Assembly: GCA_947627225.1 (NCBI GenBank)
Contig: CANQVB010000006.1
Span: 1-37,734 of the forward strand
Length of the DNA: 37,734 nucleotides
Reading direction: 5' to 3'
Origin: an uncultured Bacilli bacterium
GTDB taxonomy: Bacteria; Bacillota_I; Bacilli_A; RF39; UBA660
Shown here in pieces: positions 10,307 to 22,665 of this stretch (positions within the stretch are counted from its first letter, which is position 1; every line of letters begins with the position of its first letter). The translations under genes were made by a program, and so were the position numbers. The notes under the pieces were generated by a model. That model was not told where the DNA came from. It saw nothing but the letters and a program-made list of their open reading frames with translations, and ran no database searches.

Positions 10307-10437
10307 ATTATATTGCAAAGATGTCTTCTTTGATTTCACCGCACACTTGATTCAAAGATATATGATATTCTTTTGCAAGAAATACCAGCTTTTCAGTTGG
10401 TATTTTTGTTTTACTATCTTCATAATAGGAGTAGCTC
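10307..10437. repeat. left copy of 131-bp direct repeat flanking IS element (long target duplication)
   Basis: Identical to 12464-12594 except T/C at 10415/12572. Confidence 0.95.
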
Positions 10438-12463
10438 CCAAGTTTGACAGTTGAAGTTCAAAAATAGTCATGTAAGCATTGAAAATGCTTGTTTTTTTAT
10501 GAAATTGTATATTGCGTAGTTTCTCGTAGTGTGTTATAATACTTGTAGGATGTGATTATATGGCAAGGTTATCTTATTCCAAAACTAAAAACAGTTTAAA
10601 TTATTACATTATTGAAGACTACCAAAAAAATGGAAAAAGAACTACACGGAAACTGGAAAAAATAGGCAATTTAGATCAAGTTTCAAAATTAGCTCAAAAA
10701 GAAAATATTGATCCTGATACTTGGCTGAATAATTATTTAAATAAATATAAAGAAGAGCACTATTCTCAGGTTGAACCTGAAAAAGTTATTATTGAGAAAT
10801 ATGCAAATAAACTTATATCTAAATACGTTACTAATAGATTTAATGTTGGTTATCTATTTTTAAAAGATATTTATTATTCCTTAAAATTAGATAAAATAGC
10901 TAAGAACATTAGTAGAAAATATAAATTTGAATTTGATTTAAACGACGTCTTGTCTAATTTAGTGTTCTCAAGAATTATTTACCCTTCTAGCAAATTAAAA
11001 ACTTATGAATTAAGTCAAAAATTTATTGAAACGCCTAAATATAATTTAGAAAACTTATATCGTGGTTTAACTTATCTAAATAACGATTTAGATTATATTC
11101 AGAAAGAATTATATAATACGAGTAAATCTGTCATTGATAGAAATACCAAAATCATATATTTCGATTGTACAAATTATTATTTTGATATTGACGAAGAAGA
11201 CGATTTAAGAAAATATGGTAAAGGTAAAGACCATAAACCCAATCCTTTAGTTGGTATGGGATTATTTATGGATGGGAACGGTTTACCTATTGCCATGAAT
11301 ATATTTCCGGGTAATGAAAATGAAACGAAACACTTAATTCCTCTTCAAAAACAAATAGTAAAAGATTTTAATTTAGAAAATGATAAAACAATCATCTGTA
11401 CAGATGCAGCCATGTGTACGGACGAAATAAAACAATTTAATATCAAAAATGGTCGAGCTTTTGTGATAACACAATCCATCAAAAAATTAAAAGAAGAATA
11501 CAAACAAAAGGTATTTTCAGATGATGATTGGAGGATTATCGGAGATTTAAAAAATACATACAAGTTAAGTGAAATATTAAATGATGAAGAAAAAAGTATA
11601 AACAATTATGAAACGATATTTTATAAAATAGTTCCTACCGAAACTGCTCATGTGAAGCAAGATTTAATTGTTACATTTCAAATAAAATATCGAGATTATT
11701 TAAGAAAAGTTAGAAATGGACAAATTGAAAGAGCTAAGAAAAAAATAAGTTCAACAAATACAGGAGATAAAATTAAGTTAAGCGTTAATCCTAATGATTA
11801 TAGAAGACTTATTAAAGAAGAAGTAACTCTAACTCCAAAAGGAACCAAGAGTAAGCAGGCAGACAACTCTTTAAATGAAACTAAAAAAGAAAAGTATAAT
11901 TATTCCTATTCCATAGATGAAGATATTATAAAAGAAGAAGAAAAATTTGATGGATATTATGGAATTACTACTAATTTAGTTGGAGATATACAGGAAATAT
12001 TAAATATATCTAAAAACAGATGGGAAATTGAAGAGTCATTTAGATTATTGAAAACAGACTTTGATTCAGGAACAATACATCTATCAAGAGAAGATAGAAT
12101 CAAGGCACACTTTCTTACATGCTTTATTTCTTTGTTAATTTATAGAATACTGGAAAACAAACTAAATTACAAATATACAAACACTAAAATAATAGAAAAA
12201 TTAAGAGAAATGGAAGTATATGAAGAAAAAGGTGCAGGATATTCTCCATCTTATGTAAGAGATGATTTAACAGATGATTTACATGAAATTTTTGGTTTTA
12301 GGACTGACTATGAAATAATTTCCTATGAAACTTTCAAAAAAATTTTTAAGCAGGTTAAAAACTAGAAACTACGCAACTTTTTTTAAAGACAAAAAATCCC
12401 ACTTTTCCTTTTGTTTATAAGGGCTTGTGAGATTTTTTATATTCAACAACTGTCAAATTCAAG
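10438..12463 (+). mobile_element. IS1634-family insertion sequence (about 2.03 kb)
   Basis: Contains 601-aa transposase; inverted ends share TTTGACAGTTG (10443-10453 versus reverse complement of 12447-12457); flanked by 131-bp direct repeats. Confidence 0.88.
10560..12365 (+). CDS. IS1634-family (DDE) transposase
   Basis: MARLSYSKTKNSLNYYIIEDYQKNGKRTTRKLEKIG; KIIYFDCTNYYF, TIICTDAAM, FDGYYGITTNL..I..ISKNRWEIEESFRLLKTDF. Confidence 0.88.
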   Translation: MARLSYSKTKNSLNYYIIEDYQKNGKRTTRKLEKIGNLDQVSKLAQKENIDPDTWLNNYLNKYKEEHYSQVEPEKVIIEKYANKLISKYVTNRFNVGYLFLKDIYYSLKLDKIAKNISRKYKFEFDLNDVLSNLVFSRIIYPSSKLKTYELSQKFIETPKYNLENLYRGLTYLNNDLDYIQKELYNTSKSVIDRNTKIIYFDCTNYYFDIDEEDDLRKYGKGKDHKPNPLVGMGLFMDGNGLPIAMNIFPGNENETKHLIPLQKQIVKDFNLENDKTIICTDAAMCTDEIKQFNIKNGRAFVITQSIKKLKEEYKQKVFSDDDWRIIGDLKNTYKLSEILNDEEKSINNYETIFYKIVPTETAHVKQDLIVTFQIKYRDYLRKVRNGQIERAKKKISSTNTGDKIKLSVNPNDYRRLIKEEVTLTPKGTKSKQADNSLNETKKEKYNYSYSIDEDIIKEEEKFDGYYGITTNLVGDIQEILNISKNRWEIEESFRLLKTDFDSGTIHLSREDRIKAHFLTCFISLLIYRILENKLNYKYTNTKIIEKLREMEVYEEKGAGYSPSYVRDDLTDDLHEIFGFRTDYEIISYETFKKIFKQVKN

Positions 12464-12594
12464 ATTATATTGCAAAGATGTCTTCTTTGATTTCACCGCA
12501 CACTTGATTCAAAGATATATGATATTCTTTTGCAAGAAATACCAGCTTTTCAGTTGGTATTTTTGTTTTACCATCTTCATAATAGGAGTAGCTC
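12464..12594. repeat. right copy of 131-bp direct repeat, overlapping the 3' end of the HTH gene
   Basis: See 10307-10437. Confidence 0.95.
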
Positions 12595-12917
12595 GATTGT
12601 CGAATTTTTAGAATCGCTGCAAATTCTTCTTGTGTTTTTTCTCTTTTGTTGCGCTCTTCTTTCAGTAAATTGCCAATCGTTTGATAGGTAATATTTTGTT
12701 GGTACTTGCAGTATTTTCTGCTGTTCGATAATCCTAGTAAATATTCTACATTGGTGTGAAAGAGTTCCGCCAATTGAATCAGTTTTAAAATCGGAAAATT
12801 AACATCTCCTAATTCCCACATTGTATAAGTAGAACGTCGGATATGTAAGAATTCGGCAACATCCTCTTGAGTCATATCATTGTCTTCTCGTAAATTTCTA
12901 ATTCTTACGTACTGCAT
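12465..12917 (-). CDS. tandem XRE/Cro-type HTH regulator (two HTH domains)
   Basis: IRNLREDNDMTQEDVAEFLHIRRSTYTMWELGD and LLKEERNKREKTQEEFAAILKIRQSSYSYYEDGK. Confidence 0.85.
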   Translation of the reverse strand: MQYVRIRNLREDNDMTQEDVAEFLHIRRSTYTMWELGDVNFPILKLIQLAELFHTNVEYLLGLSNSRKYCKYQQNITYQTIGNLLKEERNKREKTQEEFAAILKIRQSSYSYYEDGKTKIPTEKLVFLAKEYHISLNQVCGEIKEDIFAI

Positions 12918-13043
12918 ATAACCACCTATATTTATTCTATTACAGCTATACTTTTTCTCATGGATTTGTCAAAATAATTGATAAAGTTTAAAAAAAGAGT
13001 GAAAAATCGTTCAAAAAGACAATGATATAGTAGGGGGATATCA

Positions 13044-15104
13044 ATGCGGAAAGTTCCAAAAGTACTCCAAGAGGATATGTTGGATTGTGGCCCTGCTTGT
13101 CTGTATGCCATTTTTAAGTATTATCATGGAAAAATGCCTTACGCAAAAATTAAAAAAATGGTCCAATTAACAGGAAAAGGTTGTGATGCGTATTCTCTAT
13201 TACAAGCAGGAGAAAAACTAGGATTTATGATGGAAGGAAAGAAAGGAGTGATTACACAGATTCCTTCTTCAAGCTATCCTGTTATAGCGCATATTAAAAA
13301 AGAGAACTATTATCACTTTGTTGTAGTGATGGGAATAGACACTTTTCAAAAAGCGGTTTTCATTATGGATCCTGCCAAAGGTTATGAGAAAATACCTCTT
13401 TCAAATTGGGAAGAAATTTGTACTGGGAATTACTTGTTTTTTCGTGTTAAACGTTTCTTAGCACGCGAAAAAAGTCGTTCTATTTGGAAAGAGATATTTC
13501 CTAAAACTTATTTGAAAAAAAGTATTTTACTGGCCCTTTTTGGAAATAGTATTCTAACTCTTTTTGAACTTTATACCTGGTTAGAAGTAAAATTGTTTTT
13601 TACTTATTTATGGGTGCAAAAAGATGTTTATAATTTATTACAGTACTTTTGTTTTTTTCTCAGTTTTCATCTCATTTTAGAAGGTGGATTTTACCTGCTC
13701 CGTTGGTTCTTTTTAAAACTTCAAAATACACTTTTAGCTTCTTACCTACAAACTTGGATGAAAAAATTGTTGTATCTCCCTTATTATTTTTATGAAAATT
13801 ATCGTGTGAGTGCATTGTTGGAGCGAACACAATCTTTTGAAGAAATTTATGCGTTTTGGTTTCAGTTGTTGGAAACGCTTTTCTTTTCATTCCCTCTTTT
13901 TATAATTGCTGCGTGGTTTCTTTCAAAAAAAAGCTTCCTTTTTCTAATTGGAGTTACGCCTTGTTGTTTGACTCTTTTGGGAAGTTCTTGCTTTTTCTTT
14001 CGTAAGTTTGAGAAAAAAGTAGAAAATTATCTTCAGAAAAGAGAAAGGAAAAACGAACTTTTTCTAGAAACATTTGGAAAGATGGACTTATTAAAAGGAC
14101 TTCATCAAGAACATTTTTTCTTTGCTAAGTGGCGCAAAATCTCGTTTCAATGTCAAAAAGCTACCTATCAATTTCAACTTTTTTTAAGACAGAAAGAAAG
14201 TATTCAGAAACTAGAGAGAAAGGTGAGTAAATTTTTGTTTTTATTTCTGTTTCTTTTTGCTTCTTATCGAAATGAGGTTGTTTTTTCTGACTTTTTCGTA
14301 TTAGAAATTCTTTTTGAATTGTTGTTAGAAAACTATACAAAAATATTAGAGCTCTTTCTGCTTTTTCCCAAAATAAAAGTAGAAGCTTCTAAATTAGAAC
14401 CTTTTCTCATGACCTCTTTTCAAGAAATTTTTCCTAAGAAAAGCCTTTTACCATATCCACATTTCACATCCCTTGCCATTCAAAATTTTACGTATCAGGT
14501 ACAAGGAAATGTCAAAAAAAGTACGTTTTCTATGTGTGTTCGTCCAAAGCAGAAAGTCATTTTACATGGCCCTTCAGGATGTGGAAAGAGTACGCTTTGT
14601 AAAAGTATCCTTCGCTATTATCCCATTGCAAAAGGAGAAATTTTTCTCAATCAAATGGATATTTTATATTTGAATTTAGAAGATTTAAGAAGTAGAATTT
14701 GTTATTTATCACAAGAAGAAGGCCTTTTTTCAGGGACATTACTTGAAAATATTACATTAGGAAAGAAAATCTCTCCAACACATCTTCAAAAAGTTTTAGA
14801 AATTACACATGTAGCCAAATTATTAAAGGAGAAGAAGATAGATCTTCATTTTCCAATTTCTATTTTAAATCTTTCGTTGAGTGGCGGGGAACGCAAAAAA
14901 ATTTTATTAGCAAGAACACTTCTTTTAAAACGAGATATTTATTTATTAGATGAAGTGTTCGAAAGTATAGAAGAGGAGGAAGCCTGCGAATTGATTCAAA
15001 ATACGCTAACCTATTTAAAAGATAAAATGGTCATTGTTATTTCTCATAGAAAAAATATTGATTTTCTCTTCGAAAAAGTATCTTATTTTGAGGAAACCGT
15101 ATGA
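13044..15104 (+). CDS. peptidase C39-containing ABC transporter (bacteriocin processing/export)
   Basis: N-terminal LQEDMLDCGPACLYAIFKYY (Cys), YYHFVVVMG (His), MDPAKGYEKI (Asp); Walker A GPSGCGKST, LSLSGGERKKILLAR signature, YLLDEVFES. Confidence 0.9.
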   Translation: MRKVPKVLQEDMLDCGPACLYAIFKYYHGKMPYAKIKKMVQLTGKGCDAYSLLQAGEKLGFMMEGKKGVITQIPSSSYPVIAHIKKENYYHFVVVMGIDTFQKAVFIMDPAKGYEKIPLSNWEEICTGNYLFFRVKRFLAREKSRSIWKEIFPKTYLKKSILLALFGNSILTLFELYTWLEVKLFFTYLWVQKDVYNLLQYFCFFLSFHLILEGGFYLLRWFFLKLQNTLLASYLQTWMKKLLYLPYYFYENYRVSALLERTQSFEEIYAFWFQLLETLFFSFPLFIIAAWFLSKKSFLFLIGVTPCCLTLLGSSCFFFRKFEKKVENYLQKRERKNELFLETFGKMDLLKGLHQEHFFFAKWRKISFQCQKATYQFQLFLRQKESIQKLERKVSKFLFLFLFLFASYRNEVVFSDFFVLEILFELLLENYTKILELFLLFPKIKVEASKLEPFLMTSFQEIFPKKSLLPYPHFTSLAIQNFTYQVQGNVKKSTFSMCVRPKQKVILHGPSGCGKSTLCKSILRYYPIAKGEIFLNQMDILYLNLEDLRSRICYLSQEEGLFSGTLLENITLGKKISPTHLQKVLEITHVAKLLKEKKIDLHFPISILNLSLSGGERKKILLARTLLLKRDIYLLDEVFESIEEEEACELIQNTLTYLKDKMVIVISHRKNIDFLFEKVSYFEETV

Positions 15105-15448
15105 ATAAATGGACGTTGTTTAAAGTGCTTTTATTTCTTTATAGTATCGTTTTGCTTGTCTTTTTGAATATGCCTTTTGAACTGTTAACTTATGTGGCAT
15201 ATCAAGGCAGTATGAAAAATAGGAAAGATGCGATTGTTTATTCTAAAGAACCATTGCATCAAAAACAAGGCTATATTAAAAATCAAAAATACGCTTTTCG
15301 AATTTTGTCAAAACAAAAAATCAAGACGAAATACTTTTATGAAATTTCTTTTAAAAAAGATGTACCACAAGATGATTTTACACTTTATTGTAGGGGTGAG
15401 CGCGTATCACTCTGGGAATTGATGCAGAAAGAATGGAGGTTATCATGA
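15101..15448 (+). CDS. single-pass membrane protein, putative accessory to the bacteriocin exporter
   Basis: 115 aa, N-terminal TM, ATGA overlap with the ABC transporter and with the first leader peptide. Confidence 0.6.
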   Translation: MNKWTLFKVLLFLYSIVLLVFLNMPFELLTYVAYQGSMKNRKDAIVYSKEPLHQKQGYIKNQKYAFRILSKQKIKTKYFYEISFKKDVPQDDFTLYCRGERVSLWELMQKEWRLS

Positions 15449-15594
15449 AAACATTAACAAAAGAAGAAATGATGCAAGTAAAAGGAGGCATTTCTGTCTG
15501 GGTAGGTGTCGGTATAGCAGCCCTTGCTGTTTTTTTAGCGGGACTCGTTGATGGAATTGTGCATCCAAATCCGTGTGAAGGAGGTGAAATATGA
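15445..15594 (+). CDS. double-glycine leader peptide, putative class IIb bacteriocin subunit 1
   Basis: MKTLTKEEMMQVKGG|ISVWVGVGIAALAVFLAGLVDGIVHPNPCEGGEI; GG leader, GLVDG (GxxxG), single Cys; ATGA overlaps on both sides. Confidence 0.82.
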   Translation: MKTLTKEEMMQVKGGISVWVGVGIAALAVFLAGLVDGIVHPNPCEGGEI

Positions 15595-15761
15595 CAAAGC
15601 TTTCCAAAGAAGAATTACAAAAAGTAAATGGTGGAATTGATTTAACGGGAACGCTTCTCAATTCATTTACTTCGTTGATCAAAATCCTTTTAGAAACAGG
15701 ACGAGCAGTAGGTTCTTCACTAAGAAGAATTGAAGAAAATCAAATTTGCCCTTTAAAATAG
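15591..15761 (+). CDS. double-glycine leader peptide, putative class IIb bacteriocin subunit 2
   Basis: MTKLSKEELQKVNGG|IDLTGTLLNSFTSLIKILLETGRAVGSSLRRIEENQICPLK; GG leader, GRAVG (GxxxG), single Cys. Confidence 0.82.
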   Translation: MTKLSKEELQKVNGGIDLTGTLLNSFTSLIKILLETGRAVGSSLRRIEENQICPLK

Positions 15762-15884: not shown

Positions 15885-16112
15885 ATGACACAAGTCACTG
15901 TAAAAAATGGAAACTTAGATATGGCACTTAGAAAATTTAAACAGAAAGTGGCAAGAGATGGTGTCCCTTCTGAATGCAGAAAACGGGAATGTTACGATAA
16001 ACCAGGGGTAAGAAGAAGAAATGCAAAAAAAGAAGCGATAAAAAATGCCAGAAAAACCGCAAGAAAGAATGCCAAAAAGAACGCAAGAGAAAATCATATT
16101 CACGAAAGCTAA
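15885..16112 (+). CDS. rpsU: 30S ribosomal protein bS21
   Basis: VTVKNGNLDMALRKFKQKVARDGVPSECRKRECYDKPGVRRRNAKKEA. Confidence 0.92.
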   Translation: MTQVTVKNGNLDMALRKFKQKVARDGVPSECRKRECYDKPGVRRRNAKKEAIKNARKTARKNAKKNARENHIHES

Positions 16113-16198: not shown

Positions 16199-16450
16199 AT
16201 GTATCATCCATTCGAAAACCTTAAAAATTATATTGAAGATAATGAATTTCGTGTCACACTCTTTGAAAATAAAGTTCATATTATGAATTATCAGGAACTC
16301 ATTTCTATTGGAAATGAAAAAATTATCCTGCAAGCGCCGCACTATCAAATGTCATTTTTTGGAAACAATTTGGCTTTATCCAAACTTCTAGATCAAGAAA
16401 TCTTAATTTCAGGACGCATTTACAAGGTGGAGATTTCTTATGCAGAGTAG
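16199..16450 (+). CDS. yqfC: sporulation protein YqfC-like
   Basis: YqfC-like small protein directly upstream of yqfD. Confidence 0.75.
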   Translation: MYHPFENLKNYIEDNEFRVTLFENKVHIMNYQELISIGNEKIILQAPHYQMSFFGNNLALSKLLDQEILISGRIYKVEISYAE

Positions 16451-17612
16451 ATATATTTTAAAAATTACAGGTAAAAATTATGCGCGTTTTTTAAGAATGA
16501 TAAAAAGCTTATCCATTCGAATCTACTCCCTTTCTTATTTACAAGATTGTATCCAGATGGAAGTGGATGAAGAAGGGTATCAAAAAATAAAGAAATTAAA
16601 AACAACGTATCCTATCGAACTGATTGCTTATAAAGGAAAAGTAAAATGGTACCTTCTTTTTCAAAAATATCGCCCTTTTTTAGGGTTCATTTTATTGGGT
16701 GTTTTTTTTCTTTTGTTTCTTTCCAATCTAATTTTAGAAGTGGAAGTCGTTCATACGAAAAAGGAAATTAGAACCCTACTTTTAGATGCTTTGAAAGAAG
16801 AGAATATTGCACCGTTTCATTTCAAACCTTCTTTTGAGAAAAAAGAAGACATCAAACAAAAACTCTTACAAACTTATAAAAACAAAATCGAGTGGCTTGA
16901 AATCGAAGAGGTTGGTACTAAATATATTGTGCGTGTAGAAGAAAGGAAAATAAAGGAACAACAAGAAAAGACGACGCCAAGAAATATTGTTGCTTCTAAA
17001 GATGCCATGATTTTATCGATTACAGCGCAAAGAGGAGAAATCGTCAAGAAAAGATTTGATTACGTAAAAAAAGGGGATGTGTTAATAGGAGGCGTCATTC
17101 ATAAAAATGAAGAGGCAAAAACCAAAGTACAAGCAGAAGGAGTCGTTTTTGGTGAAGTTTGGTATACCGTTTCTGTCTTACTTCCAGTTTATCAGCAAAA
17201 AGAAGAGGTGATTGGAAAGAAAAAGCAACGACTTTCTTTGCATTTTTTATCGCATACATATGATTTTTCAGATGCGTATTATAAAGTTCGGAAAACAGTT
17301 CCTATTTTTAAAAGTTTTCTACTCCCTATTTTTCTATCCCTAGATACAGTAGAACAAGTCAAATTGACAACCACAAAATATACGTTAGAAAGCAGTGAGA
17401 AAAAAGGAATCGCGCTTGCCAAAGAAAAACTTTCCTTAAAACTTCCCCAAAATAGTGAAATTATTGCACAAAAAGTTTTGAAAAAACAAAAGAAAGGAAG
17501 TAAAATATATATAGAAGTGTTTTTCAAAGTCAAAGAGGATATAACTGCTTATGAATCCATAGAAAATTTAGATCTTTCTTTAGAAAACAAAAAACAAGAA
17601 GAAACGGGGTAG
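16440..17612 (+). CDS. yqfD: sporulation protein YqfD
   Basis: 390 aa, single TM near residue 80, IVASKDAMILSITAQRGEIVKKRFDYVKKGDVLIGG. Confidence 0.85.
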   Translation: MQSRYILKITGKNYARFLRMIKSLSIRIYSLSYLQDCIQMEVDEEGYQKIKKLKTTYPIELIAYKGKVKWYLLFQKYRPFLGFILLGVFFLLFLSNLILEVEVVHTKKEIRTLLLDALKEENIAPFHFKPSFEKKEDIKQKLLQTYKNKIEWLEIEEVGTKYIVRVEERKIKEQQEKTTPRNIVASKDAMILSITAQRGEIVKKRFDYVKKGDVLIGGVIHKNEEAKTKVQAEGVVFGEVWYTVSVLLPVYQQKEEVIGKKKQRLSLHFLSHTYDFSDAYYKVRKTVPIFKSFLLPIFLSLDTVEQVKLTTTKYTLESSEKKGIALAKEKLSLKLPQNSEIIAQKVLKKQKKGSKIYIEVFFKVKEDITAYESIENLDLSLENKKQEETG

Positions 17613-20743: not shown

Positions 20744-21295
20744 ATGAAATTATTTATTGGGTGCTCTTCAGTAGATTTTATGGAAAAAGAAAAATACAGG
20801 CATCTTTTGAATCCATTACTGGATATCGATAAGCTTGAAGTCATATTAGGTGGGGCAACGAGTGGTTTAATGCAACTGGTATATCAGATGTGCAAGGAGA
20901 AAAAAGTTCCCATCACCTTTGTTGTTCATCAAACCTATCAAGAAGAAACCGAAAATTATGTTCATCAACAGGTGCTTGCTGCTTCGACTACTATGGATAG
21001 ATCTAAATATTGTTACCAAAAAAGCGATTTTTGTCTTTTCTTAAATGGAGGCATTGGTACGTTTTGTGAATTCTTTTCTTTTTTAGAAGAAAAAAGGACA
21101 GCAAAAGATGAGAATTATCCGATTTATATTTATAACGAAGATCATAGTTTTGATGTTCTGTATCAACTACTAGAAGATATGGAACAAAGAAAAGTGGCGA
21201 GTAGAAAAGATTTGTTTGAACTTTGTGAGTTTATCGATTCGCAAGAAGAATTGATTGAGAAGATTAAAAATTTGAATGGGAGTGATATGAAATGA
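20744..21295 (+). CDS. LOG-family (lysine decarboxylase-like / phosphoribohydrolase) protein
   Basis: LGGATSGLMQ and LNGGIGTFCEFF motifs similar to GGGxxGLMG / PGGxGTxxE; ATG at 20744 follows GAAAGGAGG. Confidence 0.6.
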   Translation: MKLFIGCSSVDFMEKEKYRHLLNPLLDIDKLEVILGGATSGLMQLVYQMCKEKKVPITFVVHQTYQEETENYVHQQVLAASTTMDRSKYCYQKSDFCLFLNGGIGTFCEFFSFLEEKRTAKDENYPIYIYNEDHSFDVLYQLLEDMEQRKVASRKDLFELCEFIDSQEELIEKIKNLNGSDMK

Positions 21296-22665
21296 CAAAA
21301 TTAACGATGGAAAAGTTGGTAAGTTACTGTAAGCAATATGGGTTTATTTACCAGGGAAGTGAAATTTATGGAGGCCTTGCGAACACTTGGGACTATGGGC
21401 CTTTAGGAGCAAAACTTAAGAATAATGTGAAAGATTCTTGGCGTAAGAGGTTTATTCAGGAGCGTGAGAATGCTTATGAAGTGGATGCCGCTATTTTGAT
21501 GCATCCGAGTGTTTGGGAAGCAAGTGGGCATGTCGCAAGTTTTTCAGATCCTTTGCTTGACTGTAAACGCTGTAAGAAACGCCTTCGGGCAGACACTTTA
21601 ATTGATGAGTTTGATGAAAATGCCAAAGCAGATGGAATGACACAAGAAGAAATGCTTGCCTATATTAAAGAAAAACAAGTTCCTTGTCCTTACTGTGGAG
21701 CAAGTGATTTTACAGATATTCGAAAGTTTAATTTAATGTTTGAAACGCATCGTGGGGTAACAGAGGATGCTAAGAGTAAAATTTATTTACGGCCTGAAAA
21801 TGCACAAGGGGAGTATGTTAATTTTTTAAATGTACAACGAACCATGCGGGCTAAACTTCCCTTTAGTATTGGGCAAGTTGGAAAAGCATTCCGCAATGAA
21901 ATAACACCAGGAAACTTTACATTCCGAACCATTGAATTTGAGCAAATGGAATACCAAACCTTTTGTAAAGAAGGAACGGATAGCAATCTCTATGCTTATT
22001 TTAAAGAATATGCCAAAAAATATTTTGTGGATCTTGGAATCCAAGAAGAAAAACTTCGTTATCACGATCATGAAAAATTAGCGCATTATGCCAAGGAAGC
22101 TTGCGATATCGAATACCAGTTTAATTTTGGTTGGGGAGAAATCAACGGAACGCATAATCGTACGAATTATGATTTGTCTCGCCATGAAGAATATTCAAAA
22201 GTATCCCAAAGTTATTTAGACCCAGAGACGAATGAAAAATATATTCCTTATATTATAGAGTCAACCGTAGGTTGTGATCGGCTTGTTCTAGCACTTTTAG
22301 ACAATTGCTATGAAGAAGAGGTTTTGGAAAACGGAGAGATTAGGGAAGTCATGCATTTTCATCCATTCCTTGCGCCTTATAAAGTTGCTGTTCTTCCTTT
22401 GGTGAAAAGGTATCAGGGGGAAAAAGCAAAAGAAGTATATCAAGCTTTATGCAAAGCCTTTCCCTGTAGTTATGATGAAGCAGGAAGTATTGGAAAGCGT
22501 TACCGAAGACAAGATGCCATAGGAACCCCTTTCTGTATTACCATTGATCAAGATACACTCGATCAAGAAACGGTGACGATTCGAAATCGGGATACGATGG
22601 AACAAGTAACCCTTCCACTTTCTTCCGTACAAAGTTATATCGAAGAAAGGATTCGTTTTGAATGA
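21292..22665 (+). CDS. glyS: glycyl-tRNA synthetase (single-chain class II)
   Basis: GFIYQGSEIYGGLANTWDYGPLG...FRNEITPGNFTFRTIEFEQME..ESTVGCDR. Confidence 0.95.
   Translation: MTKLTMEKLVSYCKQYGFIYQGSEIYGGLANTWDYGPLGAKLKNNVKDSWRKRFIQERENAYEVDAAILMHPSVWEASGHVASFSDPLLDCKRCKKRLRADTLIDEFDENAKADGMTQEEMLAYIKEKQVPCPYCGASDFTDIRKFNLMFETHRGVTEDAKSKIYLRPENAQGEYVNFLNVQRTMRAKLPFSIGQVGKAFRNEITPGNFTFRTIEFEQMEYQTFCKEGTDSNLYAYFKEYAKKYFVDLGIQEEKLRYHDHEKLAHYAKEACDIEYQFNFGWGEINGTHNRTNYDLSRHEEYSKVSQSYLDPETNEKYIPYIIESTVGCDRLVLALLDNCYEEEVLENGEIREVMHFHPFLAPYKVAVLPLVKRYQGEKAKEVYQALCKAFPCSYDEAGSIGKRYRRQDAIGTPFCITIDQDTLDQETVTIRNRDTMEQVTLPLSSVQSYIEERIRFE

Follow-up and report, generated by a model that had tools for sequence, protein, structure and literature searches.

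The genes described here lie at positions 13044-15761 of the window, by which we mean the whole 37,734-nt stretch of DNA analysed, part of a contig (C6) of a 1.1-Mb metagenome-assembled genome (MAG; 69 contigs, 91.8% complete). Four genes reading in the same direction encode a C39 exporter, a 115-aa membrane protein (ACC) and two small peptides, A and B, and are joined at all three junctions by ATGA overlaps (15101, 15445 and 15591; Table 1). A first-pass annotation of this DNA had described the same genes and overlaps, together with leaders MKTLTKEEMMQVKGG and MTKLSKEELQKVNGG, mature lengths of 34 and 41 aa, and the GxxxG motifs GLVDG and GRAVG in the mature peptides; all of these features were confirmed, the gene coordinates being exact to the base. 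The divergent intergenic region upstream of the exporter contains one weak sigma-70-like site (12978-13007), which by itself is no evidence of a promoter.

Table 1 Features of the peptide locus and its immediate surroundings, in window coordinates.
Feature	Position	Strand	Basis
Double-HTH Xre-type regulator, divergent from exporter	12465..12917	-	Pfam HTH_3 x2
Intergenic region between the divergent Xre-type and exporter genes, presumed to hold the promoter/operator	12918..13043	.	Position alone
Peptidase-containing (C39) ABC exporter, 686 aa	13044..15104	+	Pfam Peptidase_C39 E=3e-25, ABC_tran E=6e-23
ACC, accessory membrane protein, 115 aa	15101..15448	+	AlphaFold model; family alignment A4
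Peptide A, 49 aa: 15-aa GG leader + 34-aa mature ISVWVGVGIAALAVFLAGLVDGIVHPNPCEGGEI	15445..15594	+	TIGR03949 30 bits; 76-sequence alignment
Peptide B, 56 aa: 15-aa GG leader + 41-aa mature IDLTGTLLNSFTSLIKILLETGRAVGSSLRRIEENQICPLK	15591..15761	+	78-sequence alignment
rpsU (ribosomal protein S21), conserved 3' neighbour marking the chromosomal site	15885..16112	+	Pfam S21

Beyond the Xre-type gene, a DDE (PF01609) transposase gene (10560-12365) lies in an element at 10307-12594 that is abutted by 131-nt direct repeats, 99% identical, at 10307-10437 and 12464-12594. We take this element to be an IS1634-type insertion that duplicated a long stretch of its target; the Xre gene remains open up to its stop codon after this duplication. 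On the other side of the locus, directly 3' of rpsU (16199-17612), a YabP-family gene is followed by a gene for a 390-aa protein that resembles the sporulation protein YqfD, and in this 1.1-Mb genome the two are possibly remnant or retained sporulation genes.

Profile searches of the kind that the first-pass annotation had proposed for the peptides placed A above the curated cut-off of TIGR03949, a class IIb bacteriocin family (30 versus 21.5 bits). TIGR03949 is matched by A in 59 of 76 family members, and the lactococcin G-beta/enterocin 1071B family in 45 of the 76. Peptide B was recognised among the curated families via its leader alone, with mature B matching no bacteriocin family. Both leaders carry hydrophobic residues at positions -4, -7, -12 and -15, which are the positions that bind peptidase-containing transporters (PMC7018657); across the family these positions are hydrophobic in 88-100% of leaders, neighbouring positions far less often. 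The TIGR03949 match and the hydrophobic leader positions therefore mark the small ORFs as genes. In close species pairs, mature parts showed dN of 0.01-0.25 against dS of ~0.4-1.8 or more, giving dN/dS values that were mostly 0.05-0.3 (mostly 0.02-0.2 for mature A, with one B pair at ~0.43) and usually lower than those of the 115-aa protein. The idea that these are spurious or non-functional small ORFs, which has their small size alone in its favour, is refuted by this selection and by order-wide conservation, and deserves practically no credence. The pair is almost certainly real and exported by the adjacent exporter.

The C39 catalytic residues of the exporter, C15, H91 and D109, were present wherever the column was filled in an alignment of 101 family homologues, and its Walker A, signature and Walker B motifs are intact. 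Given these catalytic residues and the leader motifs, the C39 domain would cut both leaders after the GG, and the exporter would release A as a 34-mer and B as a 41-mer. The best NCBIfam match of the exporter was NF045998 (Mbov_0121 family), at 245 bits; membership of this family was ruled out, the curated cut-off being 500. The Mbov_0121 family transporter of mycoplasmas shares the C39-TM-ATPase layout, but the Mollicutes-like genomes among the class and phylum samples yielded no B counterpart of full length.

The 115-aa gene product had been described as a membrane protein, which holds in that it has a TM helix; there is, however, just one, joined to a soluble beta domain. An AlphaFold model (pLDDT 94.3) consists of an N-terminal TM helix, a six-strand soluble beta domain and a C-terminal helix. 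ACC matched no Pfam or NCBIfam family and no PDB sequence, and a Foldseek search with the model returned no PDB fold match below E=0.08. Like the MFP/HlyD-type accessory proteins (LcnD, ComB, BlpB), ACC is encoded after the exporter and has a single N-terminal TM helix followed by a beta-rich domain; it differs from them in having 115 aa, no coiled coil and a dispensable gene, MFP/HlyD-type proteins being of ~450 aa. Its position and outline prompted us to consider a truncated MFP/HlyD protein, a candidate that we rejected as no sequence or fold match supports membership. ACC is present in 78 of the 95 loci that have a complete A-B pair, and in 15 loci A comes directly after the exporter; it is thus dispensable in relatives. 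Possible roles for ACC include export accessory and immunity.

Since iterated A and B profiles merged via the shared leader, each peptide was assigned to its best-scoring profile, and separate analyses were made of leaders and mature parts. A GxxxG-type motif was found in 95/98 A and 94/96 B mature parts, in near-invariant columns. A single Cys on the C-terminal side of each peptide is near-invariant, as are the glycines of GxxxG, the GG and, in B, an RR: G37 and C44 are invariant in the A alignment (76 sequences), as are G15, G41 and C53 in that of B (78 sequences), where G14, G37, R45 and R46 are nearly so. Exactly one Cys is present in 90 of 98 mature A and 93 of 96 mature B sequences. A forms a strongly hydrophobic, TM-like helix (best 18-mer mean 0.88 on the Eisenberg scale), and B a usually cationic, amphipathic helix, the moment of which lies on average above that of 99% of composition shuffles. 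At two loci without ACC, L044 and L066, a further GG-type peptide (MSDTELANVYGGFGIVSAIMNTHVVLRIARTLVRLLIRR in L044) is encoded between the genes for A and B.

With adjacent small ORFs that carry GG leaders, GxxxG in both mature peptides and a C39 exporter in the operon, the locus has several features of class IIb systems, and it shares these, together with helices of 30-40 residues, with lactobin A/cerein 7B (TIGR03949) and lactococcin G/enterocin 1071. It differs from them in that mature B matches none of these families, A is hydrophobic rather than cationic-amphipathic, each peptide has one Cys, inheritance is vertical across an order, and a canonical immunity protein is absent. To our knowledge, having one Cys in each peptide sets the pair apart from the class IIb systems described so far. 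Gallocin A of Streptococcus gallolyticus is likewise a Cys-bearing hydrophobic two-peptide pair; there, however, each peptide has two Cys that form an intramolecular bond, and production is under BlpHR regulation (PMC10100652). The Cys counts given above rule out a disulfide-bonded system of the gallocin type: an intramolecular bond is not available to A and B, leaving an A-B disulfide or some other use of the Cys. One model for a DsbA-type oxidase (PF13462) found no match in six genomes of the source genus, so that any disulfide would form spontaneously or via another enzyme. A catalysed disulfide is without support, and the cysteines may have other uses.

We then determined the extent to which this locus is shared. 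An exporter homologue (E<=1e-40) was found in 250 of 293 family genomes (140 of 152 genera), one per genome, and a B profile matched 271 of the 288 order genomes sampled (99 of 103 genera), all of which fall in one family. Within a set of 101 loci (100 fetched, and the window), A and then B are found beside the exporter in 95, the two peptide genes being immediate neighbours of each other in nearly all, in line with the conservation next to C39 exporters for which the first-pass annotation had suggested checking. An rpsU-anchored scan, which is independent and does not select for the cassette, gave a similar picture: of the 64 loci whose upstream sequence reached 3.5 kb or more, 58 have exporter, A and B upstream of rpsU, usually ~60-230 nt away. 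The relatives are MAGs labelled uncultured Bacilli, Tenericutes, Erysipelotrichaceae or Bacillales, and several carry gut or rumen sample names (goat ileum, goat jejunum, sheep rumen, yak rumen, deer omasum). One genome of the source genus (G400; 90% complete, 140 contigs) lacks a B match, reflecting an assembly gap or true loss.

Outside the family, searches of class and phylum samples found no full-length B, returning only leader-length matches to unrelated small proteins, and B had no match on known plasmids or phages. Four Mollicutes-like families (f4, f15, f7 and f18; loci L248-L259) encode lone microproteins (59-137 aa) with a GG or AG leader. These were rejected as orthologues of A or B, as the similarity is confined to the leader and no C39 exporter was found within 5 kb; export of GG peptides may nevertheless be a wider theme in small-genome Bacilli. 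Our literature search, which was thin in subscription papers, found no description of an RF39 bacteriocin or GG peptide.

The locus has been inherited vertically. Pairwise identities correlate with those of Era, a housekeeping GTPase (Mantel r=0.60 for the exporter, 0.57 for mature B, 0.56 for ACC and 0.37 for mature A; all p=0.001), the A leader being uncorrelated (r=0.03). On the exporter tree, all 11 genera with at least two members form clades, a result equalled in none of 200 shuffles. Era was used as the marker because GlyS, initially considered, shows identities to the window that fall into separate bands within one genus (61 versus 82% in g40), and was dropped. This glycyl-tRNA synthetase (window 21292-22665) has identities to relatives banded at ~80, 72 and 62% even within a genus, which suggests horizontal replacement in the family.

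Mean identity across the loci was 0.41 for mature A, 0.40 for mature B, 0.34 for the exporter and 0.19 for ACC, and within the source genus mature B is 71-85% identical, the exporter 48-59%. The peptides are therefore changing more slowly than their exporter, the opposite of what is expected of diversifying competition toxins. In addition, the divergence of mature A is correlated with that of mature B after control for Era and the exporter (partial r=0.21, p=0.002), and no such correlation was seen between mature A and the B leader, the A leader and mature B, A and the exporter, or B and the exporter. As judged from these sequences, the correlated divergence supports a working partnership, although the effect is modest and the peptides short. 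That A and B are unrelated single peptides merely sharing an operon as export cargo gains something from the likeness of their leaders, which inflates the family resemblance; yet, given adjacency in 95/101 loci, an order that is always A then B, one Cys each and mature parts that diverge in step beyond phylogeny, we consider it very improbable. The two peptides very likely act jointly.

In 50 of 95 loci, we observed a further gene, gene C, encoding a leaderless membrane peptide of ~40-70 aa. Its start lies within or directly next to the 3' end of B, as a rule 7-26 nt ahead of the B stop codon. Of 93 genera in a wider sample, 42 contained a gene C match at E<=0.001; the weakest of these matches may have arisen by chance. 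In hhalign comparisons, the C-terminus of the gene C peptide, GxxxGTxxR, was aligned with B (P=2e-6, probability 89%) but not with A (P=0.71). On the exporter tree, gene C switches between presence and absence 15 or more times, and it is absent from the source genus and genome, where B alone scores (E=0.039). The gallocin A immunity peptide GIP has been proposed to work via structural resemblance to the bacteriocin peptides (PMC10100652), and a resemblance to B but not to A fits what is expected of a mimic immunity peptide, making gene C a plausible candidate for such a role. There is no recognisable immunity gene in the window, where ACC is a possible candidate. Since 11 loci consist of exporter, A and B alone, neither ACC nor gene C is obligatory. 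The earlier proposal of an uncharacterised two-peptide bacteriocin or signalling system was sound in recognising coupled class IIb-type GG peptides beside their cognate C39 exporter in small-genome Bacilli, and none of its refuting conditions that could be checked held. It missed the near-invariant single Cys, the dispensability of ACC, the lack of an obligatory immunity gene and this B-mimicking fifth gene in about half of the loci.

The signalling half of that proposal would have A and/or B act as pheromones to which the population responds, the response being regulated by the divergent Xre-type protein. Pheromones are also exported by C39 exporters (PMC7018657), and the Xre gene holds the same divergent position in all same-genus loci fetched (three besides the window) and in three further loci, making its product a candidate local regulator of the cassette. 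This gene is, however, missing beside most family loci, being confined to some lineages, and neither a histidine kinase nor any other receptor was seen linked to the locus; on both counts, signalling is less likely than a self-directed role. Two co-conserved, membrane-active-looking peptides with a B mimic would also be atypical of pheromones, and we regard this explanation as quite improbable.

RF39 is an uncultivated gut order of Bacilli with highly reduced genomes, nearly all of which are missing fatty-acid synthesis; its members are widespread in the gut and their lifestyle is unknown (PMC6784871). In our samples, a single family genome out of 25 had a ketoacyl synthase (PF00109), compared with 8 of 15 other members of the class and all 14 controls. 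The main rival to an antimicrobial role is a self-directed pair, in which A and B would function in the membrane or envelope of the cell that makes them (in the handling of membrane or lipids, in adhesion or as a cell-surface complex). Near-universal and vertical inheritance, strong purifying selection on the mature parts and the lack of an obligatory immunity gene all suit such a role, and the scarcity of ketoacyl synthase makes an unusual membrane physiology plausible. Against it stand the resemblance of A to class IIb families, the class IIb layout itself (a GxxxG pair, a cationic amphipathic B and C39 export) and a B-like gene C that suggests a need for protection in many lineages, and we judge a self-directed function to be unlikely.

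The class IIb layout and the resemblance of A to known members make a membrane-active pair the leading reading. Sequence does not decide between antimicrobial, signalling and other conserved functions; on balance, we lean slightly towards a class IIb-like, membrane-acting two-peptide system that would have become fixed as a core trait of the order RF39, and give an even chance to A and B permeabilising other cells. Bacteriocins are usually patchy, mobile and diversifying, and a pair that is near-universal, chromosomal and slow-evolving counts against the bacteriocin reading. Near-universal presence, vertical inheritance and a slow rate of change, in a locus with no obligatory immunity gene, together make an ordinary accessory bacteriocin unlikely, and the first-pass description of a bacteriocin cassette, taken as an isolated unit, gives way to that of a core locus which the whole order passes on vertically. 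As the pair is found in nearly all members of an order mostly without fatty-acid synthesis, a core function is probable over strain-level warfare. The vertically inherited operon would make both GG-leader peptides, and the membrane-acting pair may then have an ecological role as a core function, for example by causing nutrients, perhaps lipids among them, to leak from neighbouring cells or by defending a niche. A fuller and more speculative version, to which we give rather little weight, is of a core, order-defining system, possibly the first to be fixed order-wide, in which nearly every lineage would release a Cys-linked A-B heterodimer for housekeeping use (e.g. causing neighbours to leak lipids or nutrients to auxotrophs), with the membrane-anchored B mimic encoded by gene C as self-protection where needed.

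A peptide pair kept by nearly all RF39 is one of very few clues to the effects of these bacteria on other cells. The family offers ~100 natural A-B pairs, together with a candidate immunity principle in the form of a leaderless membrane mimic. If true, the reading of the pair as a membrane-acting system fixed across the order would contradict the common view of two-peptide bacteriocins as accessory genes that are exchanged rapidly.
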